A DNA stretch of 64,000 bases from Saccoglossus kowalevskii (taxonomy: Eukaryota > Hemichordata > Enteropneusta > Harrimaniidae). Of the stretch, positions 1 to 34,855 are shown piece by piece. Positions within the stretch are counted from its first letter, which is position 1. The number at the start of each line of letters is the position of its first letter. The stretch is from the NCBI RefSeq assembly GCF_000003605.2, contig NW_003135351.1:315991-379990 (forward strand), in the 5' to 3' direction. Made by a program: the position numbers and the translations under genes. The notes below the pieces were generated by a model. That model saw only the letters and a program-made list of their open reading frames with translations, did not search any database and had not been told where the DNA came from.

Positions 1-219
1 GGCATTGGACAAGTGAATTTATTATTTGTTATCGTTTTCCACAAGAAGCAATTCAGACTCACGGAGTGAAATGTGGTCATGACTTGAATGTAATTTACAT
101 GTAATTTGTCTGAACATAAATTACCCCTCGGCGCCTTATGAAGCATTAGTACACAAACCGCAGGAGAACAAATCACTATTGAAAGGCACTTCTTGTCGGG
201 TATATTAATAGTTCAACTG

Positions 220-560
220 ACTTGTGTGAACAGCTGCGCGTCTAGCACTCTGAGTATGCGCAGTAAATTACATATTGCATACTTGCGTATATATACAAAG
301 ACAGTGTAGCGGAAAGTCCCCTGTTGAGTTTCACTGGAAATGTCTGGTTGTTTTCACTTTATGGCTTCGATCGTTGGAAAATCGTAAAGAAATAGAAATA
401 TCGATTTTTGGGCTTTATATTTTAACTAGAAAACTATTGCCATTGACAACGTGTTCCTTGCTGCATTTACAAAGCACGTGACCGGCAAACACCTCAAACC
501 CCATGAAAATAATGCAGGACGGTAAATTAGAAAATGGGAATTTTTCGACGTTATACGACT
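220..560 (+). promoter_or_regulatory. Upstream module U1 of OTOP copy 1 (kappaB-like site)
   Basis: This is the first of four diverged tandem modules ahead of OTOP copy 1. It has a TATA-like tract near 286, a GC-rich TATGCGCAG segment near 254, and GGAAAGTCCC at 311-320, the reverse complement of the NF-kappaB/Rel site GGGACTTTCC. The tract TTGAGTTTCACTGGAAAT that follows is shared with the later modules. I see no clear splice donor. Regulatory function is inferred from motifs and repetition only. Confidence 0.4.
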
Positions 561-739
561 CCCATAATCAACGATGCTCTGCCTCTCCTAACCAGCAGTT
601 AAATTGACTAAATGGTTATACTGTCAAGCTATTTAAGTGGATAGACTAAGGGTGTAAAGTACAACACGTAATACACCTATCATTGCAGTCAAAGACATTC
701 AAATGTGTTGCGTACATAAATAAAATCATTCAATGTAAC

Positions 740-973
740 TGAATCGTCTGGTCAGCCGCGAATTCGCACTCCCACTGTGTATAGTACTATTACATACGAC
801 ATACATTTGCAGGGTGTGTGAAAGCCCCAGATTAACCGGAAAGTCCCTTGTTGAGTTTCTTAGGAAATTCCCGTTTCACTTTTATTTTGATACTATATTA
901 GCTGGGTATCATGGGGTATTAGGATGCGGGTACAGCGTTTATAAAGTTTTTTTTTTACTCTTTTCGAAATGAG
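740..973 (+). promoter_or_regulatory. Upstream module U2 with probable 5'UTR exon of OTOP copy 1
   Basis: This second module has two kappaB-like sites 15 bases apart: GGAAAGTCCC at 838-847 and GGAAATTCCC at 863-872. TTTCACTTTT at 874-883 follows, one base from the IRF/ISRE core TTTCNNTTTC. The module ends in a strong splice donor, GAG|GTAAGTTT, after 973. An acceptor at 2449-2450 lies just before the start codon of copy 1, so a non-coding first exon ending at 973 is likely. The transcription start is not defined. Confidence 0.5.
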
Positions 974-1109
974 GTAAGTTTTTTTTTTTTCAAAATACAT
1001 GTATGTGTGTTTGACTTTTTAGTGTGCGAGTGATTTGGGGGAAAATGAATCACTCATTCTAGACTATTTCTACGCAATGATGACTCAGCACATTTCAAAC
1101 ATTATTAAA

Positions 1110-1352
1110 AATGCATTATTCGCTGCGTATACATACTATAATCGATGGTCAGCTGCGCATCTCGGACCCTGGGCATGCGCATTATCACCATAAGTTGGAA
1201 AGTCCCGAATCAACCGGGAAAAAAACCCTTGTTGAGTTTCTCTGGAATTTCCCGTTTTACTTTTATTTTAATACTAGATTATCTCGGTATAACAAGACAT
1301 TTTGATGCTGGTGCGACGTTGTTCAAGTTAACTTCTTTTTTCTCTTTGCAAA
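1110..1352 (+). promoter_or_regulatory. Upstream module U3 with probable alternative 5'UTR exon of OTOP copy 1
   Basis: This third module is homologous to U2 along its length. It carries a GGGCATGCGCA tract near 1171, GGAAAGTCCC at 1197-1206 and GGAATTTCCC at 1244-1253 (reverse complement GGGAAATTCC, a classical kappaB variant). It ends in a donor, GCAAA|GTAAGTAT, after 1352. The same order of motifs and donor in U2 and U3 suggests duplicated alternative first exons rather than unrelated motif hits. Confidence 0.5.
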
Positions 1353-1469
1353 GTAAGTATTTTTTTTGACGTCTCAGTGTGATTTTTGAGGTCGAGTTAC
1401 TCATTCTAGACTAAGTCTATGCTATTATGAATTGGCACAATTCAGAAATTATTAAACTACACTACACTG

Positions 1470-1690
1470 CATATATATAACAGATTGTCCAATTGCTTAA
1501 ATCGAACTCCGGGCATGCGCAACACTATCATGATCGTATGTTTGAAAGACACGGATTTCCACGAAATACCCTTGCGAGATGCTCGTTTGAAAATTCTCGT
1601 TTGGCTGGCAACATGACGTTGTTCAAGCTATTTTACTCACGTCAAAATAAGGCCGCGAGTTTGCTCAAAAACCCAATGTGATCAGTATAT
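1470..1690 (+). promoter_or_regulatory. Decayed upstream module U4
   Basis: This is a fourth diverged copy: a TATATATAA tract near 1474, CGGGCATGCGCA near 1510 and the GACGTTGTTCAAG segment shared with U3. The kappaB-like sites are mutated and no strong donor remains. A short direct repeat, AATGTGATCAGTATATAC, lies at its end (about 1676-1711). Confidence 0.35.
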
Positions 1691-2459
1691 ACACAATGTG
1701 ATCAGTATATACGAAGTGATTCATTCCGGAGTTAGTCGCAGCGAAGCGAAAAGGACCTCCCATATTTAAGCGACTCGCGGAAGAGCGAACGGTTAGTATT
1801 CAGTGCCGGCGACACAGTGGGGGCAGAAGGGGCGGTCGCCTCTTCGAATAAAATGCATGAAATATCATTTCCGTGGATGTAGATTTCAAAATTGTTGAGG
1901 GAGAGCTTGGCCCTGGTGACCAGATCTCACCCCTCCATATACAATTCCGTGCCGCCGCCTCAGTATTCACACCCTTCTCACATGACTGAATTTTTAATGG
2001 CAATAATGAGGCAATAATATTGTACTCTACGTCGTCGCGTTGTTCTTATTCTACAAAACAAGCGTAATGCTTTGAAGCCAACAGATTTTCAAACCGATCG
2101 TTGATAACAATTTTTCCCGTCATCAATTTGTTGATAGATTTTATTAATTTTAAGGTTATTTTCATTCCTAGTAAGCTAAAACGAAAGTAGATCCACAAAC
2201 TGCAGTCACAAATGAATAGAAATTACTTGAATAGTCGATGTGCCCTTAATGAATAATTATTCACATTTGTAAATTCTTTAAACAAATATTTATTGATAAA
2301 ATACTTGCTTGCTAGTGGTGATTTGTCATGCGATGCAATTATATGATGACTACATATACACCAACAAAGGAACCATTTTAATTGTATTGCGTCTGTATTT
2401 AATGTTGAAAGTCGGATAAATTCATATTTTAAATCTCTATGATTCCCTAGATTACAAAT

Positions 2460-5400
2460 ATGCCTGGACGAGGTAGAAACTACCAAGCACTGGACGTTAG
2501 AGATGCCGTTGTTCATGGACGCAATCGACACAGGTAACACAACACTATTTCGTAACATTGGTGACAAACACGCGTTAGTTCATATGTTTCTGACTAAGCA
2601 GTGAGTTATTAATAATGATGAGAGAACCATACATTTTTGAAAAGTTATCTCATTGCACCCATAAGTGAGATGTATAGTCACGTGACATGAAAAGAGTTGA
2701 ATCAACGCACTTTTATCAAAACTACACGAAGAACCAATCACAAGACTGGTTACGAACCAGTTGAGCAAGGCTAACCGAGTCGTAACCTCGATGTGGTTCG
2801 TAGCCAGTCTTATGATTGGTTGTGGACAAATTCTGAACAGGCCACCGTGAGACGTCTCCAACTGTGCCGTGCGTTCGGGCCAACCGTTAATTATTCATAA
2901 ATGGAGTCAATTTGTGTAGTTTTCTTGATTTATTCTGCAGATATAGGTAAAATATGATTATAGGCTTTGGCGAAATTTGAAATAGCAAATAATATTCTTC
3001 AACCTGGTATTTTTTATAGATTTTATTTTTCATTCTGTTCGTCTGTTTTTTCCAGTTTAAAAAATATGAGCTCGCTGGAGCCTTCATCCCTTGTCTATTT
3101 CTTACACTAGATACCAGCCGATACTCCCCCCCCCCCGCTCATAGGGAGTGCGTACAGTTGATTATAGTTCCTGATGGGCTCCCTGTGGTAATTATGTGCG
3201 GCAATACCATACACGCTGAACTGTTTTTGGGTTTAATTTAGGAATGACTGTCTTGAAGGTTATATATGGGAATGTGGTGATGATTATTAATCCTCACATT
3301 ATACATATGACTTCTTACATTCTTACATTATTATTATTATTATTATTATTGTTATATTTTCTAGAACAAGGACAAGCGTTGCATGCAGTCAAGTCTTTGC
3401 CTTACTACATATCGTAGTCGGACTGGTTTTACCACTGGCATACGCCTTTCAGAAGTTTCGGCAACAAAACAAGCGATATGGCAAGGATGTACAGTTCTGG
3501 CAACTCGACGCATATCACATATATTTGTACGGCTTATCGATAATATGTGTTATTTGCATGATCGCATTTGGAATGTTGAAAACGCATGACGGGAAACAGA
3601 GCCACCAGGCGGCGTCAGAGTTCATAAAAGGTGATTTAGATGCCTTTCAAAAGATGTATTTTAAAGTAAACATAGTTTTTTTTACATTTGACATTGTACA
3701 CTTATTCCTGCATTTAACAAACAAACGTTAAACTATTTTTCAATTCAATAGCTGGCGCTGTTTTGTTCGGAGTCTGTGGTATGCTGCAAGCGGGATTTAA
3801 ATTCTGCTCAATAGTTGGCGACCATAGTTGTGAGAACTGTGGTAACCATGGTGTTGATGCTAGTGAATCGTTTCTGTCCATGCTGTTTATATTTATACTC
3901 TGGTTATTCGTTTGTGCCTACTCTAACAGATGCATAACAAAATGGAAGAGATTTGCAAGGTATTCATATTTAAAAATAAAATAATGTAATTAAATAAATA
4001 AAATGGGCAAACGTTAAATGGCGGTTGTCGCCGAGCCGCGTCGTGTTCAATATGTGACTCATAGCAAAATATACGTGTAAAACGCGTGTAAAATATACAA
4101 GTTTGTTTACGTGATACGACCAGCGGATATCGGCGTGTCGATTCCTTTTTGGCTTATATTTAATTTCTAGGCACGTACGCACAACCTTGTCTCGACAGGT
4201 TCCTGTTAACAGAAGCAGAGTCATGTCCATACACCCATGATTAACCCAGAGTTCAACCTTCATTTAATGTTCTTTCACTTACACAGGGTGGCGATCATGC
4301 TTTTATGGGCAACGTGTATGAGCTCTTGGAGTGGATTATTTGTTGATGAGGTTATGCACGACTTTGAACACGGCAATTTTAGTTATAAGATATGCAACTT
4401 GAAAAAGGAGAACGTTACTCCAGTGATGGAACTGGTTAGCTCCCTGGGTCTGTTCAGTGAATTCCCATATGTCGTCAGTTATCACAGAAATAACGGTAAG
4501 TACTGAATGTGCATTTTATGCTACATGGATTACTAAAGTAAATGTGTATTAATTCATCATTGGTACAACAAGTATATCGACAAAGTACATTACGCAGATG
4601 ATGACAGCGCCGGAAGTTCTAAAATTCCGTGTGACAAACATTATATGCGGACAGCTAGCTCTGGAGCTATTTAGATAGATCTAAAATTGGCTGCCTTGTT
4701 TTGGTTTATGTTTCAAAATTTTAATTATAAACAATTATAAAAAAGCTATTCTATCTTCGCCTACAGATGACAAAGTAAAATGTGTACCATAGTCTCATGT
4801 TATATTCCTTAACTGAGAAGAAGTTTAATATATTTGGTTGTAATTGTTTTTAGCAGAAGACAGTCAGGAAAAGATGTCATATGACGACGTCAAAGACGAG
4901 ACTTCTGCTTTCCTAATTCCAGGGGCAATGGAGTTTTATCTCATCATGTCTGGCTTCATGTACGTGATGTATGGAAATATCGGGAGAGATACGGATAATC
5001 AGGCTGTACGTGGAACGAGACACCTCACCCTGGACAAAAGTTACTTCGGACTAGGACTAGGTATTATTACGATAGTGTGCGCAATCCTAACGGTTGTAGC
5101 ACATGTCAAATCAGAAAAGGACATGGCAGAACTATTAGTAGGAAAACCCTCAGTAATCTATTTCGCGTTTGCTATTGGGGTGTATGCGTTTGCTATTGCG
5201 GGTAACGTTGTATCCCACCACATCATGAGGAACAGTGACGTCTGGGTAATTGATGATAGACGTGATGATGAAGTCAGGCTCACCATGGTTCTCATGTTTA
5301 TTTCAGCCAGTGGACTTTTTATTAACAGCGTGTTCACAATAATTGCGGCCTCGTTATCGATGCAATCCGTGCACCAACCAGAACTTGTAATTGCGCAGGA

Positions 5401-5704
5401 CACCATCAAAATCATTGATATAACATGTCAGATGGTATTCCTATACGACGCATTTCACAGAACGCCACCGAATGAATTTAAGCCGACCTTCGCTCGTAAC
5501 ATAACGATGTTTTTAATTTTTTCAAACTTCGTATTTTGGGCAATGAACATTTACGAGCAGAAAGACCTTGGTGTATATCCTATGCAGTACTGTTTCTATA
5601 GTTACGAGATTTGGTCGATTGTGTTACACCTAGTGACTCCATTAGAGATATATTTCCGATTTCATTCATGCCTTTTATATTTTGAAATTTGGTTGAGCGG
5701 ATGA
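2460..5704 (+). CDS. OTOP: Otopetrin-like proton channel, copy 1 (5 coding exons, 535 aa)
   Basis: Predicted coding exons are 2460-2533, 3365-3630, 3752-3959, 4287-4495 and 4854-5704, with GT-AG introns in phases 2,1,2,1; the total of 1608 nt is in frame. The product has about 12 hydrophobic segments, as expected for otopetrins: two in exon 2 (residues about 36-100), two in exon 3, one in exon 4 and seven in exon 5. Family signatures include LIPGAMEFYLIMSGFMYVMY (sixth segment), QMVFLYDAFHR, NFVFWAMNIYE and the C-terminal EIYFRFHSCLLYFEIW. Otopetrins are dimeric proton-selective channels of the plasma membrane and some organelles; the exact role here is unknown. At about 535 aa it is near the short end of the family. 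The start codon follows an acceptor at 2449-2450, implying a non-coding first exon in modules U1-U3. A tandem acceptor (TAGCAG) at exon 5 could add or drop one residue. Confidence 0.88.
2733..2820. repeat. Foldback inverted repeat in intron 1 of OTOP copy 1
   Basis: The left arm, starting CCAATCACAAGACTGGTTAC, is matched by an inverted right arm, starting TGGTTCGTAGCCAGTCTTAT, around a loop of about 33 bases. The arms are about 26 bp with a few mismatches. It could be a small foldback transposon remnant. I found no second copy. Confidence 0.5.
3329..3360. repeat. (ATT)n microsatellite
   Basis: A short run of TTA/ATT trinucleotides lies directly before the exon 2 acceptor of OTOP copy 1. A similar TTATTATTA tract precedes the same exon in copy 2 (10849-10865), so the tract was probably present before the duplication. 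Confidence 0.7.
4014..4135. mobile_element. Degenerate MITE, family 2, in intron 3 of OTOP copy 1
   Basis: It begins TTAAATGGCGGTTGTCGCCG, matching the TTAA-(A)GGCGGTGGTCGTCGCG end of the other family 2 elements, and shares GTGTTCAATATG and GTTTGTTTA blocks with the copy at 11490-11622. The right end is eroded, so the boundary is approximate. Confidence 0.5.
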
Positions 5705-6645
5705 TTTTTCTATCGAGTGACTGTTCACTTGAGACGCCTATTTTATTTGTTATACACATTTTCTGTATGATATTATATGTAAAGCTGCATCTGAAAGCAC
5801 ACGGAAGTCTTGATTTGTAAAGCACTGTGTAGTGGACTGTGATATGATTATATATAGATATATATATACCATGATTGCCGTTGCTTTGAGATATTGTTTA
5901 TAACTGGCCGTGATCTGAAACTTTTTCAAACCATACATTTCCGTCCGACTTTTAAGGATGGACGAAAAGTGCCGATAACTCATCGAAATACACGAATATT
6001 TTCAAAACATGTCATGAAACCACAGCCTTGTGCGTGTAAATATTCATGCCATAAAGTGTATTTATTCTTGAGATGATGCGCATTGTTTTTATTGTTAAAA
6101 CGTATATAGCTTGAATAAGCACAGAGTTACGCTACGTAAATCAGGAAGTGTCAAATCGTTGTCCGGCATTGTGACGACCACACTCATTGTTTTCATTTTA
6201 TATACTGACTTGATGGAATTATTATTATTTTGGAATCTCGTTTTTAACCGCAATTACAAGTCAAACAATCAAAAATATATACAAATGTCTCTGGGACAAT
6301 GCTACCCAAGTTTAGAAAGTTACATATTTTAGTTTAGTTGAATGCTCACCAGAAGTATCACTTACATGTGATTTGAGAACAAATTCTCAAAAACAGGAAC
6401 ATCATATGCATATAGTTGACATAAACAATGATAAAATATGCTTAAAACAAGGTGAAACGCTGATAGACATGCGCATAGTTGAGCATTCGTAAAGGACAAT
6501 CATTATGATAGTTATGGCAGGCAATAGACCTTTTGCGCAATACACCGGAAGACATTTCTGAGACTGCGCAGTGGTACGCAAGTCCCCCGGTTGACCCAGT
6601 TGAGAGGCGGAAGTAAACAAGACCGATGTTTATATTCAGTACGCT

Positions 6646-6789
6646 ATGGCTAACGTTCAAGATATCTCGTCTATCGACATTCTAAGGAAAAAAAAAACGG
6701 TGAAACAGTTAAAGGAACTACTAAAATCCAATGTCTTAAAGTTGGTGGCAACAAAAACGAGCTTTTAGCTAGAGCAATTGAGGGGAAAA
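6646..6789 (+). pseudogene. Orphan SAP-domain first exon with a 1-base frameshift
   Basis: Translation from the ATG at 6646 gives MANVQDISSIDILRKKKTVK followed by QLKELLKSN. After a missing base near 6733 the next frame continues LKVGGNKNELLARAIEGK up to a donor at 6789/6790. Together this is a textbook SAP motif (a DNA-binding helix-extended-helix, about 35 residues). SAP motifs occur at the N-terminus of many nuclear proteins and of several multicopy, transposon-associated gene families. No following exon is recognisable before OTOP copy 2, so this looks like a stranded fragment. A sequencing error at the frameshift is possible. A run of ten A at 6687-6696 stays in frame (RKKKT). Confidence 0.55.
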
Positions 6790-7785
6790 GTAATATTATT
6801 TTCTACTTTCGTTTATAGTTTTGTGTTACTGAATTCATCATATTGTAATTTGTAATGCTCCTGCCTCCTACATTATGGTCATTCAATAAACCTGTATTAT
6901 TACCCAAAATAATAAGAAGCCTGGCAACCTATATTTCCATAGTAACCCAAATCGCACCAACAGAATTATTGTCTGCTATGTCTGTTGTTGACTTGGTGGT
7001 ATATCTAGTAAATAAATGCAACCCTTAACTGCATATTGCGAGAATAAGACCGCCATGAGGTGTTCGAGTAAATTTAGAATGTACATGCATGAATACATGA
7101 AACACACGCACCTTCATTACCTGGATTGTTGATACGTCATTTGCATAGGAAAAAGGAGTGTCCTCACGAATAATGATTAATAATCGATAGAGACAGGTGT
7201 AATACAACGAAATGACTCTCGGTATCAACATATTCACATTTAATATATTCATTGATTGAAATTTAGTCCACACTATAAACTAGTCTGTTTCTATGGCTGT
7301 AAATTGGTACCCTGAATGTGAATGGCGAGATCAGACCATTATAGCAAGTTCTCATGACGACGGCGACAAGATCAGAACACCTGGCATATAACCTTTCTTT
7401 ATGACAGCAATTATTTCATCTATTAGGGTACGGCCAATGTAACTGCATTGTGTACGCAATTATCAATTTAGTAAACGTGTATGACCACCCTAAAATAAAG
7501 CAGTCTGAAGTCGTCTCTATTCGTAATATATCCCTGCATAAATGGCTTTACATGTACGTTAGCGACGTTTCTTTAAATTATCATCCCCGGTCCAACTCAT
7601 GAATGCTACTGCAAAGAATTTAAACGTTTAACCATGAGCTAACCACATTTGATCGTATCGCAATATATACACACAACGCAAACTTTAAAATTGTACTACT
7701 CAAGTACTTTAACTAAAATTTACGTGTCATCAGCAGCAGCGTATCTCAGCATAATTTTCTCACTCAACTCACAACATGCATTGCA
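6790..7785. other. Intergenic sequence without recognisable genes
   Basis: AT-rich sequence with only short unsupported open frames. I see no conserved protein motif, clear repeat or RNA gene. An AATAAA at about 6886-6891 could be the polyadenylation signal of the SAP-like fragment. Confidence 0.5.
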
Positions 7786-7789
7786 TGCA

Positions 7790-8000
7790 GGTAATTCGTG
7801 CACAGTAAACCTATACGATGATTATTTGGGCATGGGCATATAAATCGACGTTATATAAATCGAAATTCCGATTCATCACCGGAAATACCCTTGTTGAGTT
7901 TCGCTGGGAAACCCCCCTTTATTTTTACACTGAGGCTATATTATTATTGCAAATAATTTCGTTGAAACCACGATGTTGTTTCAAGTTGATTAGGGACAAG
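7790..8000 (+). promoter_or_regulatory. Upstream module of OTOP copy 2 (first copy)
   Basis: This segment is homologous to the modules before copy 1: GGGCATGGGCATA near 7828, then GGAAATACCC (mutated kappaB), the shared TTGTTGAGTTTCGCTGGGAA block, and a degenerate kappaB match GGGAAACCCC at 7906-7915. The expected splice donor is absent, so it may be a decayed promoter copy. Confidence 0.4.
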
Positions 8001-8050
8001 ACAATTTATATAATCTGTAGTCATACAATACCTGTTTCTGTTGGTGAGTA

Positions 8051-9190
8051 GCCTTTTAATGTTAGTAAACCACCTAATTTCTCAGTGATTAGTGACCTAT
8101 TTTAGAACAGGACTAAAGTCACCAGTAACATGCATGACCTCACTCGCTCACAATTAACAACAGGCGCGTTATTATACCAAATTGTGTTTATATACCTACA
8201 CTTATAAATTCAATTCGCTGCATTTTGTGAGTATATGGTGAATAGGTGCGTATGCCCACCCTCCCAACTTGCTTAATACATTACGCATTACATATACAAT
8301 GATATTTAAAGTGGCAAGCACATAGAATCTCTGACTAATATCGCTCAGACTCTACTGTTATTTAATAAATTTTATTTTCCAACTTGTTCTTAAAAACTTT
8401 TATTTATTATACCATGTTTCATTGTACAGATATTTGGTGTATACGTGTCTCCTAATTTTGGTTACTAACGCCATAAAACCTTTAGTATGAGCGTTTTCGA
8501 TTTGCTATATGCACATCTATGTAGGATGCTCCACCCCACGGAACATGAGTAATGTATTATCAGTTGTATTATGAATAATGAGCAGCAAGCTAAGGGGACC
8601 AACTCGCATCCGTATCGATTATTACACATGATTTAGGGAGTCGCGGGTGCCTTGGAGTTAAATAACAATACGTGTGTTATGCTGACAGCCATAAAGCTGA
8701 CCGAGGTGATGAGGCATTTACGATGAAGCTACTAACATACCTGGATTTACTCACGATTGATTGTGTCACAAATCACGATTATGGCATGGTTTTATGCATG
8801 GAAAATAACTGTTTCAATTAACAGTAATATTTTGTCTGACACTATTAAAGAATATTTTTTATTTTACAATTTCCATTGATGTATTTGACCAACTCATGTA
8901 TTTCACTGATTAAAATCAAGTTAGGTATCTGGCGATAGTGTACCTATGCATTCATTTCCTACTGTTGGTCGAAAATCAAATATAAATGCATTTGGTATAT
9001 TTGCCATGTAAAAAAATACTTAAATTTATAACACGTCCGAGCCAAATAAATTAGTCTAAAAGTTGTAACATTTTTTAAATCTACTCATATGGGTGCACCT
9101 CCACGTCAGATTGTCCTTTCTATTATGTTCATGATTACACTAATTGCAGTCATGTTACTGCATCAAAGAATGAGGTGAAAGGTCGCTGTT
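8051..9190. other. Intergenic sequence without recognisable genes
   Basis: AT-rich sequence between the two upstream modules of OTOP copy 2. Only short frames are present and I recognise no coding, RNA or repeat feature. Confidence 0.5.
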
Positions 9191-9194
9191 CATA

Positions 9195-9372
9195 GCATTA
9201 ATTATGCACAGACTCTGGGCATGCGCATTTTAATAATCATCACATGCATGATTAAGTCATTCGCATTGAAATTGGAAATTCCCGGTTTCACTGAAATGAC
9301 GCGTTTACTTTCACTTCGATGCTGTGATAGGCGTTGTTGACTGTTGACTGTTTTTTTTCATTTTAAAACAAG
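9195..9372 (+). promoter_or_regulatory. Upstream module of OTOP copy 2 with probable 5'UTR exon
   Basis: It contains CTGGGCATGCGCA near 9217, a kappaB-like GGAAATTCCC at 9274-9283, and ACTTTCACTTCG at 9307-9318, which resembles IRF-binding GAAGTGAAAGT on the other strand. It ends in a strong donor, ACAAG|GTAAGTTT, after 9372. An acceptor at 10028-10029 (or 10065-10066) precedes the ATG of copy 2. The layout repeats that of U2 and U3 upstream of copy 1. Confidence 0.5.
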
Positions 9373-10067
9373 GTAAGTTTTCTCAAATAAGTAATCATAC
9401 ACGATATTCTGTGTTAGCTGTAGAGCCAATGTTTCCGCGTAGTGTGTACCAGAGAACTCTCAGCAGCGCAAAACGTAGTATTAATGAATAACTATCCAGG
9501 CATAGTTTTGATTTGAGCGAGGCGTTATTCTCCGTCTTTATACGTCGTTCAAAACCCATGTGGTTCTCATTTCGTCAACCACTGCGCCATAGTTACGGTA
9601 GTGTTTTGAGGCATTTCCAATAATAATAATATTCCAATAATTTTATGCAAAATTTATTCATGTATTATATTGAAAGTTTAAATAAAAGTAGCAATTCTTT
9701 GGGCTTACCTTGGATGTTCAACGCTCGAAAATCTAAGGTTCCTTGCCGTGGCTAAACGAAACTAGAATAAAGCAATTATAAGTATATAAAAACCTTTATT
9801 TTGCATAGAGCAAAATATTTGTATATGTCAATTCCTGTTAATAGAAAGATTTAACCTTTCTGTATGACATTCACGTACGAGAACCTATTTCCGAACAAGG
9901 AAAACCGTAGTATGTCGCATATAAAACCACAGATTACAATCTGAAAGACGTGTACAGGCAATTTAAATGTTAGTAAAATACAATTCTCTATAATCTCTCA
10001 TAGCTTGTTTTATTCATTTATATTTCTAGTTATATTTGGGTTGAGTCTGAATATCTTGACGTTTAGG

Positions 10068-13000
10068 ATGCCTGGGCGTGGAGACTATCAATCATTGGAC
10101 ATAGAACGGGATGTAGTTCACGGAGTCAATCGGCACAGGTAACACAAACTGCAATAATGCTGGTGTCATGGTGACACATGTACCCGTCATCATTTTGAAT
10201 GGCAATGTGCATTATCAACAGTCTCGATAATGTATGTATTCCTGCATCTACAATTGTAAAGTAACTGCATTCAGACAGTGTTAATATTGTGGAGCTACAT
10301 CATAAGTGGAATATCCTAACGACCCCCCAAAAAAATTACCCACAAAACCTTCAAATATTTTTCTTTCCAACGCTCTGCATAATTTACAGATAATAAATGA
10401 ATAATTGAAAATATTAAAATTTTAAAAAAGTGAAACGTTTTGGAAACCGCTTTCTTATACGTTTTTGTCAAACTCACACCGGTTGAATGGTTATGTAAAT
10501 TATTCGCTCACCCCACGTATGATTTAAAGTTGGTCCTGAAAGAGGACTCGATCTTAAATAGCATTTTGGGTATAATACTTTGAGCTTTTTTCGTTTCATA
10601 TTTATATTCCAAAGCTTTCGCGCTTTGCTTCGAAAACACAATAAGTTAATAATATTTTAAAGTATTTACAGAGAGATGATGTCATATCCGCGAATGACCG
10701 GTCAGAAATTTCTGCATCAAGTCAGTTACACTATCTAAACACATGCCTCTCTGCTCAAGATTCCCACTTTCCTCCAAAAAAAACAACCTGTCCGTAATAT
10801 TCTGACATCACCACCCAGAAATAATAATTGCAGAAATAATAAATCATCATTTATTATTATTATATATTCTAGAACACGAACGAGCGTTGCCTGCAGTCAG
10901 GTCTTTGCCTTACTACATATCGTAGTCGGACTGGTTTTGCCACTAGCTTACGCCTTTCAAACGTTTCAGAAGAAAAACCTGCATAGCAAAAATTTAGAGT
11001 TCTGGCAACTTGACGCTTATACTATTTATTTGTATGGATTGTCGATTATATGTATATTGGCTATGATAGCGTTTGGAATGCTGAAGACACATGATGGGAA
11101 ACAGAGCCACCAGTTCGCCTCGGAATTCATTAAATGTAATCATTTTTTCGTAGATTCTTACCAGTGTGCTCATAACGTTTCTGATTTTAAATCTTCAAAG
11201 TGTTAATTTTCAACAATAATTTCAATTATTCTTCAATTCAATAGTTGGCGCCGCTTTGTTTGGGGTATGTGGCATGTTGCAAGCTGGATTCAAGTTCGGC
11301 TCAATATTACACGACCATAATTGTGAGAACTGTGATAACCATCGTGAAAGTATTGGTGCTACTGAATCGCTACTGACCATGCTGTTCATATTGATACTCT
11401 TTTTATTCGTATGTGCCTACTCTAACAGATGCATAACAAAATGGAAGAGATGTGCAAGGTATTACAACTTAATGCATGTTGTGTTGTAATTAAAGGGCAG
11501 TGGTCGTCCTCCCGCGTTGTGTTCAATATGGGACACACAGAGACGTAAACAACGCGTGATAAGTTCATTGTTTGTTTATATCAAATTCGGACACACAATG
11601 CGCGACGACCATCGCCTCTTAAGAAACTCGAAGTGTTTTTACAATCTAACGAAGCCAAACACAAAGTGTGCATATTATTTACCAGTTTTTGTATAATAAT
11701 TATTCAATTTTCGGCTTTTGCTTCAATATCTTAAGTATTAATCATCACATCTCAATGAAACATAGTACACGTATGATCTGAAACAATGGACAAACCTGAT
11801 TGTTTTGCGGTTGACTATGTTTCCCATGAATATTATAAGAACTAATCATTGCATTCCAAATTACATAGGTGTTTTAGGTCAATGCACATGACCGATTAGT
11901 CGAAGTCCGTGCATATTAATTAGCTATTTTGTATAATACTCCCGTATCAAAGAAACATAGTACATAAATACCCCACCAACATGATTAATTTAATACTGAA
12001 AACCATGCATATTGATTACCTAACTTATATTCAGATATCCCCAAAAATCAAATTTAATTACTTGTACTTGTATCTGTGGCTCTTGAATAAAACAGACTCA
12101 GACCACATTTGTGCAGTCATTAAATTGTTTTCACGTTCAGGGTCTCAAATAGCAGACTTATATCGTGTCAAGTAAGTAATAATAAAAACAAAACTATTTA
12201 CTAACACAGAGTGGCGTTAATGGTATTATGGGCAACGTGTATGGGCTCTTGGAGTGGACTGTTTGTGGATGAAGTCATGTACGATATTGAACACAGTGAA
12301 TTTAATTATGGAACATGCATGCAAAAAATATCGCCTATATTGCAGCTCACGAACTTTCAATATATAGTTAATCGCAACAGAAATAATGGTAAGCACCGCC
12401 TGTGTATTCGATTCTACATTTGCCACTTATTTGACTTTAATATGTAATAACCAAACATACGCAACCATTCAACCAGCCAAACATACCGAGACAGTTTACA
12501 AATAAATCACTGTATCACTACAATTCACGTTCAGATATATTAACAATGTACGCTCCATCAACAATTCAAAATGTGATTATTATTTTTCAATGATATCTTA
12601 TATATCATGTTTAACTTGAAACTAAATTATCTGTTTCAAGTTCCGGCCTTGAGTTTGATTCTAAGCGGTCAACCCCCTAACTAAGATAGATGATTTTAAT
12701 TGTACTGTCATCACGATTTTCCAACACATTTACAGCAATATCCCACTCCCTCCTACTGTAAAAACATGAGATATACATTATCCAATTCGTTCGTTATGCC
12801 CGGGCCTGTAGTTACAAGTGTAGACTTGTTACCAAACGCATCAGCGTGGTATTAAGAGTTTGTTTTCAGGAGTGGGTGATACCAAGGTGGAAAATCGATG
12901 TACACATGGGGGTAATTCCCGGAATTGCAATAGAGAGGGTTCAGGCTGAAATACAATATATAGTGTTTTCATGTTTTGTCTGATATTTCTGTGATATTCT

Positions 13001-15281
13001 GCTGCTGTAACTAATGCAAGATTTGTTCCGAAATTCAGTGTATTGTGTGCACTTCAGGGTTATTTGTTTTTTGCTGAGAACACCCCTATTTTTTAATGGC
13101 AGAGTCGAACCAGTTTCACTCCCACTGGGAAATTTGCATTGTTGCTTGAATGATAGCTAATTAAATACATTTTCCAGACCGGCGGAAGAGTATGTAATAG
13201 CCCATTTTAACAGCCTATCATGTAATTTACATGGAAAGAGGCTATTCTATTTTACGCAGGAATAATTGAGAGTAGAATATACGAGGAATTGTATCAACAG
13301 AGATGTGTATAATGAAAAGTTATATCTATCCTTCTTTTGCATCGCTGAGCTTTTCTGTTTTGGTATACTGGTTTGAAAATGTTGAATTTGCATGCTTTCC
13401 GATGTTTTTTTACTGAAACACCCCTAATAGTTGAATCCCAGGTTTGGAGGAGAGTGTAACAGCGCACCACGTGATTCGTGTGAATACAATGGTGAAAGAT
13501 TGGCACGATAGGGCACCGCCCGATCTCGGTGGAACCACAGTCAGCTGGCGCACACGTGATAATAAAATAAATGCGATACTGTAAAATACTTTATTTTCGC
13601 TTGGAGTTTATTTTCGCTTTATTAAAATCCAGCAGATATCCTTTTTTTCCTATATTTCACATTAAACTCATCAAAAATCTGTGAAAATAAATTCCATACG
13701 AAACGCCCCAAAGCCTTTTCAGTGAAAATTAATTCCAGCAAAAATAAGTATTCCACAGTATTTACTTTTATGGGGGTCATATCACAATAATTTTACTGCG
13801 GGTGGATCTTTCGAGAGCCCTTTAGGGTTGATAAAACTCAGTTTCCTGGTGGTCAACATACATCAAGTTCTCCAAATCGTAGTATTCCATATGAAGTACA
13901 CCTAATATGCCAAAAAAAATAGCAGACGAAAATTTGTTTACAAAATAAAATAGTTTGGTTGCCAATGGGAATACCACGTTCATTTGCATATCGACCATGA
14001 AAATACCAAAAAAAAAAACATTATTGCATGGGTGATATGCAAACTAGTTTCAGTCGAAATAAGTGACTGCCTAAAAGTACCATTACTATTTTTCAAATTT
14101 CACTCACTCGGCAAGTATATTCCTGTACCCCAAAGGTAAAATATCGTATAGATTTCTCATTGTTTGGTAACTATTTGCTGCAAATGCAACAAAAATCAAT
14201 ATAAAAACATTACCCACACAGCATTCTACAGGTTACTTGTTTTATAAGACATTGCCTTCTTTCATCCAAACTATTATATAAATGGTTACACAGGGAAAGG
14301 CTAGTCTTAACATTCAAACTGTTTTGATAGATACAATAAGACTGTAGTGGAATACAATTATATCACTTCATCCATGTTTCATTAACCTATCCGGCACGGG
14401 ACTATAATATGTTTGTTTACGTTTTTTTCAATAGTAAGTGTGGGTAACGAGACATTTGATACTTTACAACATGACGCTGCACCGTTCTTGACTCCGGGGG
14501 CAATGGAATTTTATCTCATCATGTCTGGCTTCATGTACGTGATGTATGGAAATATAGAAAGAGAGATACGGATAACCAGGCTGTACGTGGAGAGAGACAC
14601 ATCACCCTGGACAAAAGTTACTTCGGAATGGGACTAGGTATTATCATGTTAGTGATCTCAATCCTGGTGACATGGGAGCATGTCAAATCAGAAAAGCATC
14701 CAGATAATCAAATAATAGGCAAACCGTCATTAATTTATTACGGATTTACCATTAGCGTGTATATACTGGCTATTGTGGGTAACCTTGTGTCCCACCACAA
14801 AATGAGGAACAGTGATACATGGGAAATCGACGACAATCGCGACGATGAAGTCAAACTTACTATGGTACTCATGTTTATTTCAGCTAGCGGTGATTTTATT
14901 AATAGCACGTTTACTATAATTGCGGCCTCGTTATCGATGCAATCCGTGCACCAACCAGAAATAATTATTGCACAGAACGTCATAAAGATCATTAATGTAT
15001 CATGTCAGGTGATATTCCTGTACGATGCGTTTCATAGAAAGCCACCAGATGAGTTCAAACCGACGTTTGTTCGTAACATCATGTTGTTTTTAGTTTTCCT
15101 AAACTTCGTGATTTGGTGGATGGGCATTTACGAACATAAAGATCTTGGAGTGTGTCCCATTCAATACTGTTTCTATAGTTATGAGATTTGGTCGATTGTT
15201 TTACATCTGGTGACTCCACTAGAGTTATACTTTCGGTTTCATTCATTCCTATTATACTTAGAAATTTGGATGAGGGGATGA
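10068..15281 (+). CDS. OTOP: Otopetrin-like proton channel, copy 2, with a 2-bp frameshift in exon 5
   Basis: Coding exons are 10068-10138, 10873-11135, 11245-11458, 12210-12388 and 14435-15281, with the same phases (2,1,2,1) as copy 1. Exons 1-4 are intact. In exon 5 the tract AAAGAGAGATA (about 14558-14568) is two bases longer than in copy 1. This shifts the frame, and translation would stop at 14635-14637 after the sixth membrane segment. The downstream frame resumes at once and is open to the stop at 15281, keeping QVIFLYDAFHRKPPDEF and ELYFRFHSFLLYLEIW. With only one lesion, in a GA dinucleotide run, this could be a recent null allele, a polymorphism or an assembly error. AATAAA at 15633-15638 may be the polyadenylation signal. 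Intron 4 is long (about 2 kb) and contains a MITE. Confidence 0.82.
11490..11622. mobile_element. MITE, family 2, in intron 3 of OTOP copy 2
   Basis: It starts TTAAAGGGCAGTGGTCGTCC and ends GCGACGACCATCGCCTCTTAA: inverted termini flanked by TTAA. The total is 133 bp. It lies 32 bases after the exon 3 donor, the same intron that carries related elements in copies 1 and 3. Confidence 0.7.
13576..13761. mobile_element. 186-bp MITE in intron 4 of OTOP copy 2
   Basis: The left end ATACTGTAAAATACTTTATT and the right end (read inverted) ATACTGTGGAATACTTATTT form imperfect TIRs of about 20 bp around an AT-rich core. Elements beginning ACTGTGGAAT with TTTATTTTCG are common in marine invertebrate genomes. 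No coding capacity is present. Confidence 0.6.
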
Positions 15282-15715
15282 TTAAAAAGTCCCGTTATGT
15301 TCTATATTTGTTTTGTGTGTAAGCTCACATGTGATAATACATTTTTAGATATATCGCACTATGCCCCGCGTTGAAATGATGATTTTGTATTTAAAGCCAC
15401 GCTGTTACGTTCAATTCATAATTGAACTTGAGCAAGAGAGTGATGTATTTGTATTTGCCGGGAATAACCTTTTTAGCATATATGGAACTTTCTGTGCCAT
15501 TTTTTTGTAATCCGTTCAAGGCGGACGTAGAGTCAAACTCGTCCAAAACGCATCCCAACCCAAAGCCCTGGGGGCGGGGCTTTTTATTAACAATTTACTG
15601 TTGAATGATGTCATTTGTTGTCATATTATTGGAATAAATCTATCTTGCATTTATTGACATTGAATCCTGGCGAGTGTAATTATTTCTCCAGCGTGAGTGA
15701 CATGTACGCTTCAAG

Positions 15716-18301: not shown

Positions 18302-18428
18302 TATATAAATGAGTTCGCCGAATAAGAAAAATTACTTTCACTTTCGTATCATATAACAGGACGATACTGTATGCAATTTGTTATTGTGTAATAAGTGGTG
18401 CTGTGGTCCGTCATCAACGTGCCGTATT
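18302..18428 (+). promoter_or_regulatory. Probable core promoter and 5'UTR exon of OTOP copy 3
   Basis: TATATAAA at 18302-18309 is followed by TTTCACTTTC at 18336-18345, an exact IRF/ISRE core (GAAANNGAAA on the other strand). A splice donor, ATT|GTAAGTAA, lies at 18428/18429. An acceptor (CTGCTTCAG, AG at 18398+1000, i.e. 19398-19399) precedes the start codon of copy 3. A first exon of roughly 100 nt starting about 30 bases after the TATA box would fit. No transcript supports this. Confidence 0.45.
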
Positions 18429-19412: not shown

Positions 19413-22400
19413 ATGTCAAAGGAAGAAAATGATCGTATAATCTCATCCTGTGAATTGGATGATTATTGTACGGTGCATAATAAAGATGGCGTTGAGTACG
19501 TAAATCTACGACGTTTACAGGTTAATCGAGAGTAAGTATATGATAGTTACAAATGGGTATAGTAAATATGTTTATTATTTAATATAATTATAGCGAGACA
19601 TATGTCATTGAAATGCTGTTAGTTTTGTTTTTTATAAATATGGGATGGAGCATGTGACCTCAAACCACGATTAGACACCATTTCACCACGATTTGACCAA
19701 TCAGAAGGATTGTGCGTCATCGGCCGTCAGTTGTTAGATACACGCTTCCGGGTAGATGGCAGCACACAGAGAAAATTGATCATGTCAGTTGGAGTTTCTC
19801 AAAAATATACAATTACCAAAGGGAGTTGAAAAATGTATCACTATAAAATACTAAATATAAAATAATGTTGTATCTACCTCTTCCTGTATAATGGACTGTT
19901 CTCCTGGCCAATTCTGAAACTATGCGACAACGTCCATTGGTCGAGGAAAACAGGAAGGGAAAGAAAAGATAAAAATATTGATATTTTTAATTACTTATAC
20001 TCTATTATGCAATGGAAGTATTCCAAAGTAGAAACGATAGTGTAGGTTATTCATTCCACTGATTAACAGAGTTTGAATAGTGCATAGTTCATGAGTAAAG
20101 AAACCTTAATGCTGCTGTCATGCGTTCTGTCCCAACCCGTGCTGACACTAGGATCTGCTCACTAATACAAGAATGCATATATGTAATTTAATTATCATAT
20201 AGTGTTATTAAACATTTGATTTGATATATCACATATTGTAATACATTCATTATTTAGAGCCACAATATTATTTTTATTTCAGATCAAAGGCGAGTGTGGC
20301 ATTTAGCCAACTCTTCGCCATTTTGCAGATTGTGGTTGCGATCGTATTGCCGTTCCTGGACATTTTACCAAACTTCAATGTTAATCATGGTAATTCTGAA
20401 AATGATGTGAGACGATGGAATATCTCCAAACATTTATGGTTTATTTACTTACATGTGTCATCAATATTATTCATAGTTTGTATCAGATTTTCTGGTATGA
20501 TGGTTCCACATTCAACCAACCAGCGCCAGCAGTCTGGTTCTGCTTTTGTTAAAGGTATGATCGTTTTTGCTTGGGGTCTATGTAAAGGGTAAAGGCACGA
20601 ATGGAGTGTATATGTGTACAAAAATGGCCAACACATATGGGAGCGAATTATCCAATAGTGCATTATTTGACTTACAATACATCACAACACTGGAAGTTTG
20701 TACTGGCTAATTACCTTCAACTACTTGTGTTGGTGTGACTGTGTACACGTGCCCGGACTTTGTCTAGCATTTACTTATATAACAATCGGTCAGAAAATTC
20801 TTTTCCAAAACAGTCAGATCACGTGCATGCACTATTGTAACTGACGTTTGATATATACACTAGTCAAGATATTTGATGGTTAATATTTAAATTATGTCTA
20901 GCTTATTATTGCCATGCCAACATTCCAAATATTGTAACAAAAACACGCGTTGGGGATTAGCGTAGAACACACCACGAGACAGATGGATGTGAGAGCGAGG
21001 TCCGAAACAACTCTCTGATGTTCTGTGGGGAGAAATACTTTGCAATGGAGAATATTGGCCAGTAACGACATTTCACTCAATAATGCGATAATCACCAATA
21101 ATATTCACTAACTGCAACGCGGATCGCTGATTGGCTTTTTGGCCGATGTATAACTCAATTTAAATATAAATCGGAAACTCGATGATGCAAATTTGTAATT
21201 CAGGACGATCGACGAGTCTAACATTGACCACATTTTTTACACATACAATAACCAAGAAAGATGTACCCGACATTATGTTAATGTAGACGTAGACAGATAT
21301 AGATTGTGTTTGTCTAAGGCATAGGATCCTTCATCTCCCTCGAAATAAAATAAGTCATTTTTTTAGTTAAAACTTTATAGAGGGTTGTTTACATACTTCA
21401 AGTTGCAAAATGGGACATGCGGTCGCACATCATGGCTGAAAAGGCAGTAAAAAATTAAGCTACAAATAGCTTAATTTGTGATGTGATATCGATAAAAGTA
21501 TAACGAATAAAATAACTGTGTTTTCCATTTGCCAGGTGGTGCAGCACTATTCGGTTTATGCGGTATGGTGCTTTCAGGAATGCAGTTTGGCTCCGTGTTA
21601 GATGACAGCTATGCGAAGAGTGACATATATGTCTATGCTGCCCATTCCATCCTAGAGATTGTTTTTATACTCTTTCTGTGGATATTCGTCTGTGCCTACA
21701 CCAACGTATGCATACCAAAGTGGAATTGTTTTGCTAGGTAACTAAACGCGTTCGTTATTGGTTATCTAAGACCATACGTCGGTAAATAGTAATCCCCACA
21801 AAATGTTTTTTTGTTGTTGAATGACTATGTTGAATGTTTAAAGCGCGGTAGTCGTCTCGCTGCGCATATGCGACATTTGTGTTGATAAACATTGATTTTC
21901 CCACAATTCAATGCGTTCTTCAAATGAAAATCACAAGTATGAGGTTTGACCTGGGAGCAATTTGCACTGGAAATCTTGGAAACGTCTCAGTTCGTACTCG
22001 TTGATCTGCGCAACAGTCAAAGTCGTCATCATTGTTTATATGAGACCCATATGCACATGCGCAGCGCGACGACTACCGCGCTTTAAATTAGTTTTCACTT
22101 ATAAATTTTTACTAGATACCCTGGCAATCACAAATGGCTCATTCTTCAGAATCTCCTCGGAAGAGGCGCAATCGATGCATATATGTAAATCGTACATAAA
22201 CAACGATCTGTATTTGTGTATTCACCTAACTATAGATTACTCGTTTTGACAGGATCGCAGTTATGTGTCTGTGGGCAACATGCATCAGTGGCTGGTGCAA
22301 TGAGTTTGTCGGAGAAATTGGTCATCATTTCAAGAACCCATTCGACTATGACGTGTGTAACTCGTCAACTGTTAACTCAAGTGCAACTGGTTTAGGTGGG

Positions 22401-23469
22401 TGTTTTGGTGTGGATAATTACGAGCCATATTTGTATGTGTATGTAACTGTTAGTTGTCGAACCAAAGATGAAAATGGCTTATCAATATCGGTTCGTTGAC
22501 CGAACTCCCTTTATATGTGTTGGTTTGTCCTGAACACATCAGCCAGGTTAGCATTCATGTTAGTAGAGATATCTGAGCCGCCAAATCGAAATACACTTAT
22601 GTTAATTTTGGTTACTTTTATTTGATGTAGATTTTAGGAATGAGAACAACGATTTTAGTCACATGATTGAGGACTCCTCTGCTATACTCGTGCCGGGTGT
22701 AATGGAATTTTATCTAGTTATGTCCGGTTTTATGTATGTTATACATGGAAACATTGGACGCCAGGCAACGGCGCAACACCACGCGAAGGAATCTAAATAT
22801 TTTACTCTGGAAAAAAGTTTTAAAGGCCTTGCTCTGGGTGGCGTTATTCTAGTCTTGTCTATTGTTATTGTTATCTACCATGAGGTAGAAGAGGACGAGA
22901 ATGGCGAGAAGTCTGCGATCGTTTACTATTTATATGGCATGGCTATGTACCCGTTGACGATAATTGGTAATTTAAATTGCCATTTCAAAATGCGATGGGA
23001 CAATACTTGGAAAATAAACGACAGTCGCGAAGACGGTCTTCGTCTAACCATGCTGCTCCTATTTGTCTCCACATTGGGCATGTTCGTAAGTGCAATTTTA
23101 AACATCATAGCGTGTTCCATGTCACCTGAACCAGTGACCAATTACGCGGTTCTATTAATTCACGAGTGCTTCAAGATCGTCGAAGTGTTCTGTCAAGTTA
23201 TTTTCCTGTACGATGCCCTTCACAGGGATCCACCAAAGGAGTTCAAACCTGGCATCGTTCGGGAAATAATGATGTGTATGGCTATTGTGTATTTCACCTA
23301 TTTCTGGATGACTGTTTATGAGTTGAAAGCTGAAAAAGTGAATCGACTCCAATATTGTTTCTATGGTTACGAGGTGTGGTCTATCATTCTTCATTTATTG
23401 ACCCCATTGGGAATTTACTGTCGTTTCCATGCTGTTCTGATGTATTTAGAACTTTGGATAAGTGGATAG
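19413..23469 (+). CDS. OTOP: Otopetrin-like proton channel, copy 3 (5 coding exons, about 524 aa)
   Basis: Coding exons are 19413-19531, 20283-20554, 21536-21737, 22253-22395 and 22631-23469, in phases 2,1,2,1. A second in-frame donor at 22389 would shorten exon 4 by two residues. The N-terminus (MSKEENDRIISSCELDDYCT) is unlike copies 1 and 2, but the membrane core aligns throughout: LVPGVMEFYLVMSGFMYVIH, QVIFLYDALHRDPPKEF, YFWMTVYELK and GIYCRFHAVLMYLELW. No lesion is seen, so it is probably a functional multi-pass channel. It is clearly more diverged from copies 1 and 2 than they are from each other. The start follows an acceptor at 19398-19399. AATAAA at 24282-24287 is a possible distal polyadenylation signal. 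Confidence 0.87.
21838..22086. mobile_element. Full-length MITE, family 2, in intron 3 of OTOP copy 3
   Basis: 249 bp, beginning TTAAAGCGCGGTAGTCGTCT and ending GCGCGACGACTACCGCGCTTTAA: inverted termini of about 20 bp inside TTAA. The core (TGCGACATTTGTGTTGATAA, then GGAAATCTTGG and CAACAGTCAAAGTCGTCATC) is shared with the copy at 42345-42620. Confidence 0.75.
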
Positions 23470-28392: not shown

Positions 28393-30079
28393 GTTTTGGT
28401 TTATGTTAGTATAAGTATACAAAACTTACCTTGCTAATAAATTATATTTGTTGATGCATACGTTGGAATATTCACACACAAATAGTAACTGTGCTAAAGT
28501 GAACAATATACGGCATATTGACGAAACAGCAGTTGTAGTGTTAGCTCCGATATAACTCTTATCATAGACAGCCGCCACTGTCAACCCACAGTATAGCATA
28601 GCACAAGCCCCAAACAAGACTGCGCCAACTTGGTAAGAGAAAAGAACACAACAAATTAAAGAAGAAGATGATTTTATTGGAGAAAGTATCTCTACATTGT
28701 AAGGCAAACCACAGCCTCATATAATGCATAATCTTACGCTTGTTTTTCAAAAATCCGTGATCGTCGAGTAGAGCCACTTTACTGCTATTTTAAAACCCGC
28801 GTTCAATGATGACAAAATGCGTGGATCTCGATAAAATTGTGCGTATACGTGCACGCACTCCCTAAATGAGATGGGATGAGAGACATGTCCCGCCCGAAAA
28901 GCATAGAATAATTACCGAATAAATAGTGCGACCTGGCGTTCCGTTGTACAAACTCGTCGCCGGACCTTGGGCGAATGAAAACAAACTTTAGCAGAATCAT
29001 TGAACATATCGAGGTGGTATACACAAATATGAAGTACCCATCGTTGTCTTGCTCAGCCACTTTCTCACCATGTTTGAGTATAAATGTCAGAGTTAAGGCG
29101 ACTCCAATAACGACCAATGTGATGCCAGCTAGCTGTCCACATACGGTACCGCCCGGTGACCTGAAACAGACACAAAGTACAATGCGTTGACTAATACCAT
29201 TGTTCCGGATGACAGTGATGTTACCTTATCGTACTCTGTACCATGCGTAAACCCTATAAATGGGTTTCGTAATCATCTACATATACCTTCTTTACTAAAT
29301 ATCATTAACACTACTGTTTTACCTAGACGATATTCTTGTGGAAAAGGCATGAGCAAATACTTCCCGATATCCAACGCAAACGTCCTCCTGTGATAAGTGA
29401 CAGGAAAGTTCACGTGTTTCGGGATCCCATGATTCATGTAGATTTAGACCATGACGTCATATAAAGGAGGCATTCATTGTGGCCAGAACGAGACTGATTT
29501 TCTGCCAAACTAAACGAAAATGAGAAGGCTTCTTAATAGATGCCCAAAATATTAACGTATATTAAAGTAAAGAAGACGTCACCTGCTCTCGCGCAGGAAT
29601 TGTGTTCCAAGCGACGACGATAACGCGTGCTAAAACGCAAAGGCTTTAATCGGTAGGCGCTTTTTATTATAATTATTAATTTAAATTATTTATTTTAATA
29701 TTTATTTTTACAATAAATTTGCTGGATCGGCACCACAAACAAAACAATTCTTGCAGCCACATATTTGTAACGTCAAAAACTAATTAAAATTAATAAATAT
29801 AAAAAATAATTAAGCCAACCAGGATCTTATTTTAATCGGATTGGGATATGGAGGTCTGCCGCGTGCGCAGGTGACGACTCCCCCGTTTTAATGACATATT
29901 CTTAGCAAGCTATTTACGCCATGACTGCATTATTGCAGTCGATCTTTCATTACTTACTCTTCTTTGCTGACTGCCCTTTTTCTTATAAGATTCCTGTATT
30001 CGTCAATGTCCACAGAATTTAATGAAATGGTCTCGAAGTCCGGCAAATCAGCATTAATTGCTCTATACGAGGTGGCCAT
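26127..30079 (-). CDS. OTOP: Otopetrin-like proton channel, copy 4 (5 coding exons, about 507 aa)
   Basis: Exons on the minus strand are 30079-29958, 29160-28916, 28628-28430, 28278-28181 and 26986-26127. Phases are again 2,1,2,1 and the sum of 1524 nt is in frame. The start context has an acceptor (TTTTATCAG, AG at 30094-30093) 14 bases before the ATG, so a non-coding 5' exon is expected. Otopetrin signatures include LVPAAMEYDIIMSGVMFYMY, QVTFLVETLHRSPPPGQ, NFTLWLLTFYELQ and EMYFRFHSVILMLEIW. Exon 4 is short (33 codons); its donor at 28181 was chosen because it alone gives the conserved phase. This copy groups with the pseudogene copy 5 (ETGLLL, same exon 2 length). Transcription is convergent to copy 3 and divergent from copy 5. 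Confidence 0.85.
28350..28386. repeat. (TA)n microsatellite
   Basis: An uninterrupted TA run lies within the 151-bp intron 3 of OTOP copy 4. Its length is likely to be polymorphic. Confidence 0.85.
29562..29891. mobile_element. MITE, family 1, carrying an AT-rich insertion, in intron 1 of OTOP copy 4
   Basis: The left end TTAAAGTAAAGAAGACGTCA and right end GCGCAGGTGACGACTCCCCC-GTTTTAA match family 1. The core shares CCAAGCGACGACGATAACGC and AAACGCAAAGGCTTTA with other copies. About 200 bases of AT-rich sequence interrupt it, perhaps a nested insertion. Confidence 0.6.
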
Positions 30080-34572: not shown

Positions 34573-34855
34573 ATCAAAGGCGGGTATTGCATTCAGTCAG
34601 CTATGGGGGATGACCCACGTGGTGGTGGGTGTTGTGCTGACTGTATCGTACGTGCTGGCGGATCCAGCAAACAGTCTCACACCCAGTCAAGTCGACGCCT
34701 TCTATTTCTACCTATTTATAAGTTCAATCTCGTGCATGGTGTTCATAAAAATGTCCGGAATGGTTCGGCAACACGATGGAGAACGTCGTCCACATGGCGT
34801 ATCAGCATATATCATTGGTTAGTGAACGCAAATCCATCAAAGAATATTATTGGCA

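Follow-up and report, generated by a model that had tools for sequence, protein, structure and literature searches.

Otopetrins are proton carriers that have been studied mostly in taste, balance and the gut. Otop2 of the mouse makes use of four such exons at the 5′ end that are non-coding (first exons 1a-1d), some of them probably rodent-specific, according to the available part of the source (PMC3038909). The locus of Saccoglossus kowalevskii examined here would resemble it in that an otopetrin gene is preceded by several putative non-coding first exons joined to a common downstream part. It differs in that the mouse exons are not described as mutual tandem duplicates and kappaB is unmentioned in the available text (PMC3038909), whereas the S. 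kowalevskii cassettes, whose first exons are predicted from the sequence, share homology among themselves and with the cassettes at the neighbouring paralogue. A second point of reference is the human IFN-beta enhancer, in which the PRDII and PRDI elements stand 2 bases apart, as taken from probe sequences in the accessible part of PMC11476177. One of the cassettes (M6) likewise has a kappaB match, 2 bases and TTTCAC (reverse strand), in another (U2) the gap is 1 base, and the second kappaB match of a third (U3) is the PRDII sequence of that enhancer. Unlike the enhancer as given there, U2 holds a half-site only, U3 and M5 hold none, and the further IRF sites differ in order and number.

Otopetrins have also been considered in inflammation. 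According to the accessible parts of the reports, OTOP2 is lowered in inflamed gut and was examined in LPS-treated macrophages (PMC13241748), and a null strain did not reproduce the adipose inflammation reported for Otop1 mutants (PMC10561838), so that links between otopetrins and inflammation have already been studied in mammals. Together with the first exons of Otop2, the OTOP2 report softens the view of the first-pass annotation that Rel/IRF-type sites are unexpected at a proton channel, as far as these two sources can be judged from their available parts (PMC3038909, PMC13241748). A kappaB-driven otopetrin promoter was found nowhere among the matches listed for the literature on otopetrins and immune regulation, which does not prove its absence.

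The stretch of DNA analysed here, called the window, comprises 64 kb (C2732:315991-379990) of a genome of 572.1 Mb in 4830 contigs, and holds five otopetrin genes: g1 (coding exons 2460-5704, plus strand), g2 (coding exons 10068-15283, plus), g3 (19413 to 23469, plus), g4 (30079 down to 26127, minus) and g5 (exons from about 34574 to 38454, plus; first coding exon not found). When the last exon of g1 was searched against the genome, six of the eight matches fell in these five genes and the other two in distant single-ORF otopetrins, one each. The closest pair among the five is g1/g2, identical at 74% of the amino acids across 510 aligned codons, with a dS of 0.79 and a dN of 0.155. The last exon of g2 is broken in frame relative to g1 at 14554-14565; as the dN/dS ratio of the pair remains near 0.2, either the loss of g2 is recent or the break is an assembly error. 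A frame change in the third coding exon of g5 (35245-35316) suggests that this gene may be a pseudogene. Beyond the otopetrins, the window contains a 28-base minisatellite of 21 copies, open in three minus-strand frames (42660-43257), and a 651-codon ORF on the minus strand (54200-56155) with WD40/beta-propeller matches that are all under the curated cut-offs. Members of one family of short interspersed repeats, which are 77-91% alike, occur in both orientations at 29577-29645, 34858-34990, 41786-41954, 45393-45558, 48199-48262 and 53541-53707.

In the region 220-1690, upstream of g1, one module is present four times in diverged form (U1-U4), as the first-pass annotation had proposed, and two further copies, which it had missed, lie upstream of g2 in the same orientation (M5, 7811-8023; M6, 9197-9384; all six on the plus strand). 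The module reads, in order, as a CATGCGCA box, about 30-60 bases, a first kappaB site (kappaB1), about 15 bases, a second kappaB site (kappaB2) and a T-rich tract, which in some copies includes TTTCAC; GATGCTG...CGTTGTT, present in the majority of copies, comes next, then a T-run and finally a splice donor. The spacer between the two kappaB sites carries CCCTTGTTGAGTTTC, which is missing from M6; this is the most exact string common to the modules and is not a kappaB site. M6 is the most complete module, with its box (9215-9227), a kappaB match (9274-9283) followed after 2 bases by TTTCAC, an IRF/Blimp1-like AAGTGAAAGT on the minus strand (9307-9316) and a GTAAGT donor (9373-9378) all present. 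U3 (1135-1375) has its box at 1169-1181, kappaB matches at 1197-1206 and 1244-1253 and GTAAGT at 1353-1358. U2 (738-1000) has lost the box, and holds kappaB matches at 838-847 and 863-872, TTTCAC 1 base past the second of them, an IRF half-site on the minus strand (874-881) and GTAAGT at 974-979. U1 (215-450) combines a box with two mismatches (250-262), a single kappaB match (311-320) and an IRF half-site on the minus strand (352-359), and is without a donor at the aligned place. M5 has a near-box with two mismatches (7826-7838), a one-mismatch kappaB site (7881-7890), two overlapping kappaB matches (7906-7916) and a tract without an IRF match; its aligned donor is lost, and a GTGAGT stands downstream at 8044. 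The decayed U4 (1475-1665) has kept a box with one mismatch (1509-1521) and lost both kappaB match and donor. In the left flank of 9.9 kb, 7366 bases are an assembly gap of N that ends at the first base of the window, and the 2.5 readable kb gave no convincing module match; the array may thus be cut off by the gap and have been longer.

The individual sites lie where the first-pass annotation had placed them: the kappaB matches to GGRRNNYYCC are exact (GGAAAGTCCC at 838-847, GGAAATTCCC at 863-872, GGAAAGTCCC at 1197-1206 and GGAATTTCCC at 1244-1253), and both tracts, TTTCACTTTT at 874-883 and TTTTACTTTT at 1255-1264, are present, as are the GTAAGT strings at 974 and 1353. The two kappaB sites that it gave for each of U2 and U3 hold; U1 has one (311) and U4 none; an IRF-like tract is borne out in U2 by the half-site, whereas TTTTACTTTT of U3 has no IRF match; and donors are present in U2 and U3 and absent from the aligned place in U1 and U4. 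The first sites of U2 and U3 are not homologous. That of U3 (1197-1206) is off-register: its equivalent in U2 is TGAAAGCCCC at 819, and the U3 equivalent of U2 838 is interrupted. Both modules thus have two sites by way of partly different positions, which could reflect site turnover or chance.

That the copies at the two genes share a common origin is supported by profile searches in both directions. A profile built from U1-U3 alone recovered M5 (7798-7957, E 1e-10), U4 (E 4e-7) and M6 (9211-9381, E 6e-6) in the window, and its next match in the 64 kb reached only E 1. Conversely, a profile of M5 and M6 recovered U3 (E 2e-10), U2 (E 1e-5), U1 (E 2e-5) and U4 (E 0.056), with no other match better than E 2. 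The best six alignments between the upstream regions of g1 and g2 were all pieces of the module, covering its kappaB core, its CTGGGCATGCGCA box and its donor, with E values from 1e-7 to 0.38. Because a second gene also carries modules, the finding is better supported than could be known from the first-pass annotation. When the introns of the two genes were compared, the best match had E 0.9 in intron 1 and E 0.3 in intron 4, and intron 2 gave a 21-base alignment near the acceptor (E 4e-4). A 51-base block of non-module sequence in intron 3 is kept between g1 and g2 (4014-4064 and 11490-11540; 78%, E 3e-8), and the modules can therefore not be claimed as the sole conserved non-coding sequence of the pair.

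At g3, g4 and g5, no modules were detected by profile search (best E 0.7). Ahead of g3, about 1.1 kb 5′ of the ATG, there is a perfect GAAAGTGAAA of IRF/Blimp1 type (18332-18346), with a GTAAGT at 18429. This element has TTACTTTCACTT in common with M6, which is suggestive; two GAAAGTGAAA-type matches arise in 2 of 100 shuffles as well. Upstream of g4, an old tandem duplication (30120-31882 and 31889-33495, about 69% identity) carries duplicated donor-like sites on the minus strand (CAG|GTAAAT at 31103-31111 and CAG|GTAAGT at 32678-32686), so first-exon duplication may recur in the cluster; its aligned parts are without kappaB matches.

Repeated units in one orientation with promoter-like parts could also stem from a dispersed transposable element that inserted by chance upstream of both g1 and g2. 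The genome-wide distribution makes this very improbable. Allowing up to 2 mismatches, the core pattern CCCTTGTTGAGTTTCNCTGG has six matches in the 572-Mb genome, four of which are U3, M5, U1 and U2, and the reversed-pattern control has one. The 3-kb loci around the other two contain no kappaB match and, apart from the matched string itself, nothing of the module, whose profile reached E 0.02 and 0.36 there. On these counts a dispersed repeat was rejected for the core motif; the search is blind to M6, which is without the core string. A DNA query of U2-U3 found only itself and its tandem neighbour, missing M5 and M6 too. Judged by the core motif, the block is apparently confined to this locus.

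The position of the modules suggests what they may be. In g1-g4, each coding first exon that was read has an acceptor AG shortly 5′ of the ATG, so that an upstream non-coding exon is expected. For g1, the acceptor lies at 2449-2450 (plus strand), 9 bases 5′ of the ATG at 2460, and would pair with the donors at 974 and 1353; for g2, it lies at 10065-10066 (plus), 1 base 5′ of the ATG at 10068, and would pair with the donor at 9373. The 6.8 kb ahead of g1 and g2 contain only three plus-strand GTAAGT, each of which ends a module at its 3′ side (U2, U3, M6). The probability that three random GTAAGT would all fall in six 30-base module slots is about 2e-5, with a slot width chosen post hoc. The donors at g1 are able, judging by their sequence, to join a common acceptor, as alternative first exons would, and at g2 there is one clear donor (M6), with M5 offering only the GTGAGT at 8044. 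Duplicated first-exon units, as put forward by the first-pass annotation, thus gain support from the acceptors before the ATGs and from the GTAAGT at the module ends, and the modules are probably promoter/first-exon units from which transcription would start.

The kappaB matches are far denser in the modules than expected by chance. In 220-1690 there are five against a mean of 0.08 after shuffling, a number that none of 5000 shuffles reached; this count is inflated, as duplicated copies are not independent. The outcome that would have told against the first-pass annotation, a density no higher than in shuffled sequence, was not observed. Five of the six modules hold a kappaB match, two of these five ahead of the second gene. 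In the whole 64 kb there are 11 matches against a shuffle mean of 3.3 (1 of 100 shuffles reaches 11), and 8 of them are located in the 1385 bases of the six modules, the remaining 61.9 kb having 3. As the matches at 7906 and 7907 overlap, the eight occupy seven separate places. The background from the same genome, 136.5 readable kb in 20 non-randomly chosen stretches (one wholly N, two taken for holding the distant otopetrins), yielded eight matches with no pair within 60 bases, and four of these eight fall in the two otopetrin stretches. The minus strand at 311, 838 and 1197 reads exactly GGGACTTTCC, which we take to be the immunoglobulin/HIV-type kappaB site, as it does at 30774 and 33785. 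The latter two are lone GGAAAGTCCC sites (30774-30783 and 33785-33794, one per strand) in the interval from g4 to g5; they have the same sequence as the sites in U1-U3, and their flanks are only weakly module-like.

Whether these sites still matter is a separate question. The modules may be decaying tandem duplicates, most of them now without a regulatory role, with kappaB sites inherited by chance from the founder. U2 and U3 are as alike in the kappaB core (77% identity) as in the flanks (79%), so that their likeness by itself is no sign of selection; in addition, U1, U4 and M5 are without an aligned donor, U4 is without kappaB, and only 6 of the 12 in-register kappaB positions match (two of the non-matching six being in U4). 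We nevertheless regard this reading as unlikely: box, kappaB block and donor are recognisable at both genes despite a dS of 0.79 at which introns 1 and 4 can no longer be aligned, and a kappaB match was kept in all modules except U4. For pairs that were picked after seeing both members match, the probability of retaining kappaB under random substitution was 0.02 from U2 to M5 (3 differences) and 0.004 from U3 to M5 (4 differences), or 0.05 and 0.013 with a transition bias, and 0.32 or more for pairs with one difference.

An effect at the RNA level was also considered. The paired sites are near-palindromic and could form a hairpin in the 5′ leader, and TATA-like strings in U1 (288) and M5 (7852), about 23-29 bases ahead of kappaB1, would put this site near the transcript start. 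This has next to no probability: folding energies of five module cores fell among those of shuffles (z 0.97 to -1.56), by which the hairpin was ruled out, and positions 1-12000 contain no known RNA family at the Rfam gathering score.

To compare candidate readers of the block, the counts of 17 patterns in the modules were set against those in the window outside them and in the background of 136.5 kb. The largest excess was found for three kappaB forms, the general form with 8 matches against 0.08 expected (about 100-fold). Others exceeded expectation as well: CCTTGTTG, a pattern drawn from the modules themselves (3 vs 0.06), NRF1-like/GCATGCGC (3 vs 0.08), the CATGCGCA-type box (4 vs 0.16), the TonE-like TGGAAANNYNY in U1, U3, U4 and M6 (5 vs 0.27), the IRF half-site AAGTGAAA in U1, U2 and M6 (3 vs 0.17), ETS-type patterns (2 vs 0.15) and STAT-like patterns, N3 and N4 together (6 vs about 1.1; 1.09). 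CSL and CTTTGTT-type patterns had no match in the modules. Several of the enriched patterns overlap on the same block and are thus not independent. A kappaB match followed by TTTCAC at 1-2 bases occurs at two of the eight module matches (U2 and M6, homologous to each other), at none of the three other sites in the window and at none of the eight in the background.

Of the Rel/IRF-type control suggested by the first-pass annotation, the Rel part is in line with the kappaB excess and with Rel-homology domains encoded on two contigs, C4441 (RFRYLCEGRSAGSLPGE) and C3323 (RFRYGCEGGSHGGLPG), which their loop motifs would place in the Rel class and the NF-kappaB class, respectively. The IRF part comes down to half-sites: the full element GAAANNGAAA is not clearly enriched (1 in the modules vs 0.23 expected). 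IRF DNA-binding domains are encoded on two contigs, with three matches spanning the first half of the domain. That a Rel-family factor reads the kappaB sites is plausible, and we consider the predicted binding about evenly balanced between true and false.

The cassettes could be real and the block be read by STAT, NFAT5/TonEBP (in an osmotic response), Blimp1/PRDM1 or an unnamed factor of CCCTTGTTGAGTTTC, with the likeness to kappaB as a by-product. We hold this to be a tentative possibility with perhaps a minor share of the probability. TTCN4GAA stands at one aligned place in U1, U2 and U3, with a TTCN3GAA nearby in M6, TonE-like matches are in excess, the best-kept common string is not a kappaB site, AAGTGAAAGT of M6 is of Blimp1/PRDM1 type, and an N-terminal fragment of TonEBP bound a PRDII-type kappaB site, according to the accessible part of PMC11476177. 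Set against this are the highest excess, which belongs to kappaB, the overlap of several TonE and STAT matches with kappaB sites or with the block between them, which makes them dependent, and the second kappaB of M5, which differs from those of U2 and U3 at 3-4 bases and still matches (in pairs selected post hoc).

The reading that we favour, at roughly even confidence, is that of duplicated promoter/first-exon cassettes at different stages of decay, probably read by Rel/NF-kappaB. The duplication, the confinement of the core motif, the kappaB excess, the homology across two genes and the encoded Rel, NF-kappaB and IRF domains are observed; transcription start, splicing, Rel binding and inducibility would follow as predictions. 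Each tandemly duplicated cassette would consist of a core promoter with the CATGCGCA/NRF1-like box, a block of kappaB and IRF half-sites and a non-coding first exon, which would end in the GTAAGT donor and be spliced to the acceptor just 5′ of the otopetrin start codon. A cassette of this kind would already have stood at the gene ancestral to g1 and g2, and may then have been recopied ahead of each gene to give four at g1 and two at g2. Subsequent decay would have left U2, U3 and M6 looking usable, U1 and M5 partly so and U4 not, and a Rel or NF-kappaB protein of the animal would probably recognise the kappaB sites, leading to inducible transcription of the proton channels. Several observations count against this reading: half of the in-register kappaB positions do not match, U2 and U3 are equally alike in core and flanks, the best-kept common string is not a kappaB site, the intron 3 block is conserved without being part of a module, STAT-, TonE- and NRF1-like patterns and CCTTGTTG are in excess too, profile search detected no modules at g3-g5, and g2 has a broken frame.

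The kappaB sites upstream of g1 and g2 hint at immune or stress control of these channels. Immune induction of the two genes as such is a guess and unlikely to be right. A more far-reaching reading, which appears improbable to us, is that a pair of invertebrate acid channels was drawn into innate immunity via a repeatedly copied cassette resembling the IFN-beta enhancer, giving each gene a stack of Rel/IRF-inducible starts. In that equally improbable case, each cassette would join a kappaB site and an adjacent IRF half-site to a first exon, and the kappaB sites would be replaced over time with no fewer than one retained. If the kappaB sites are kept in the copied unit, whose core motif is otherwise absent from the genome, acid transport would be tied to Rel signalling in this animal. 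With six copies at two genes, the locus offers a compact natural series for promoter duplication, decay and the swapping of sites.
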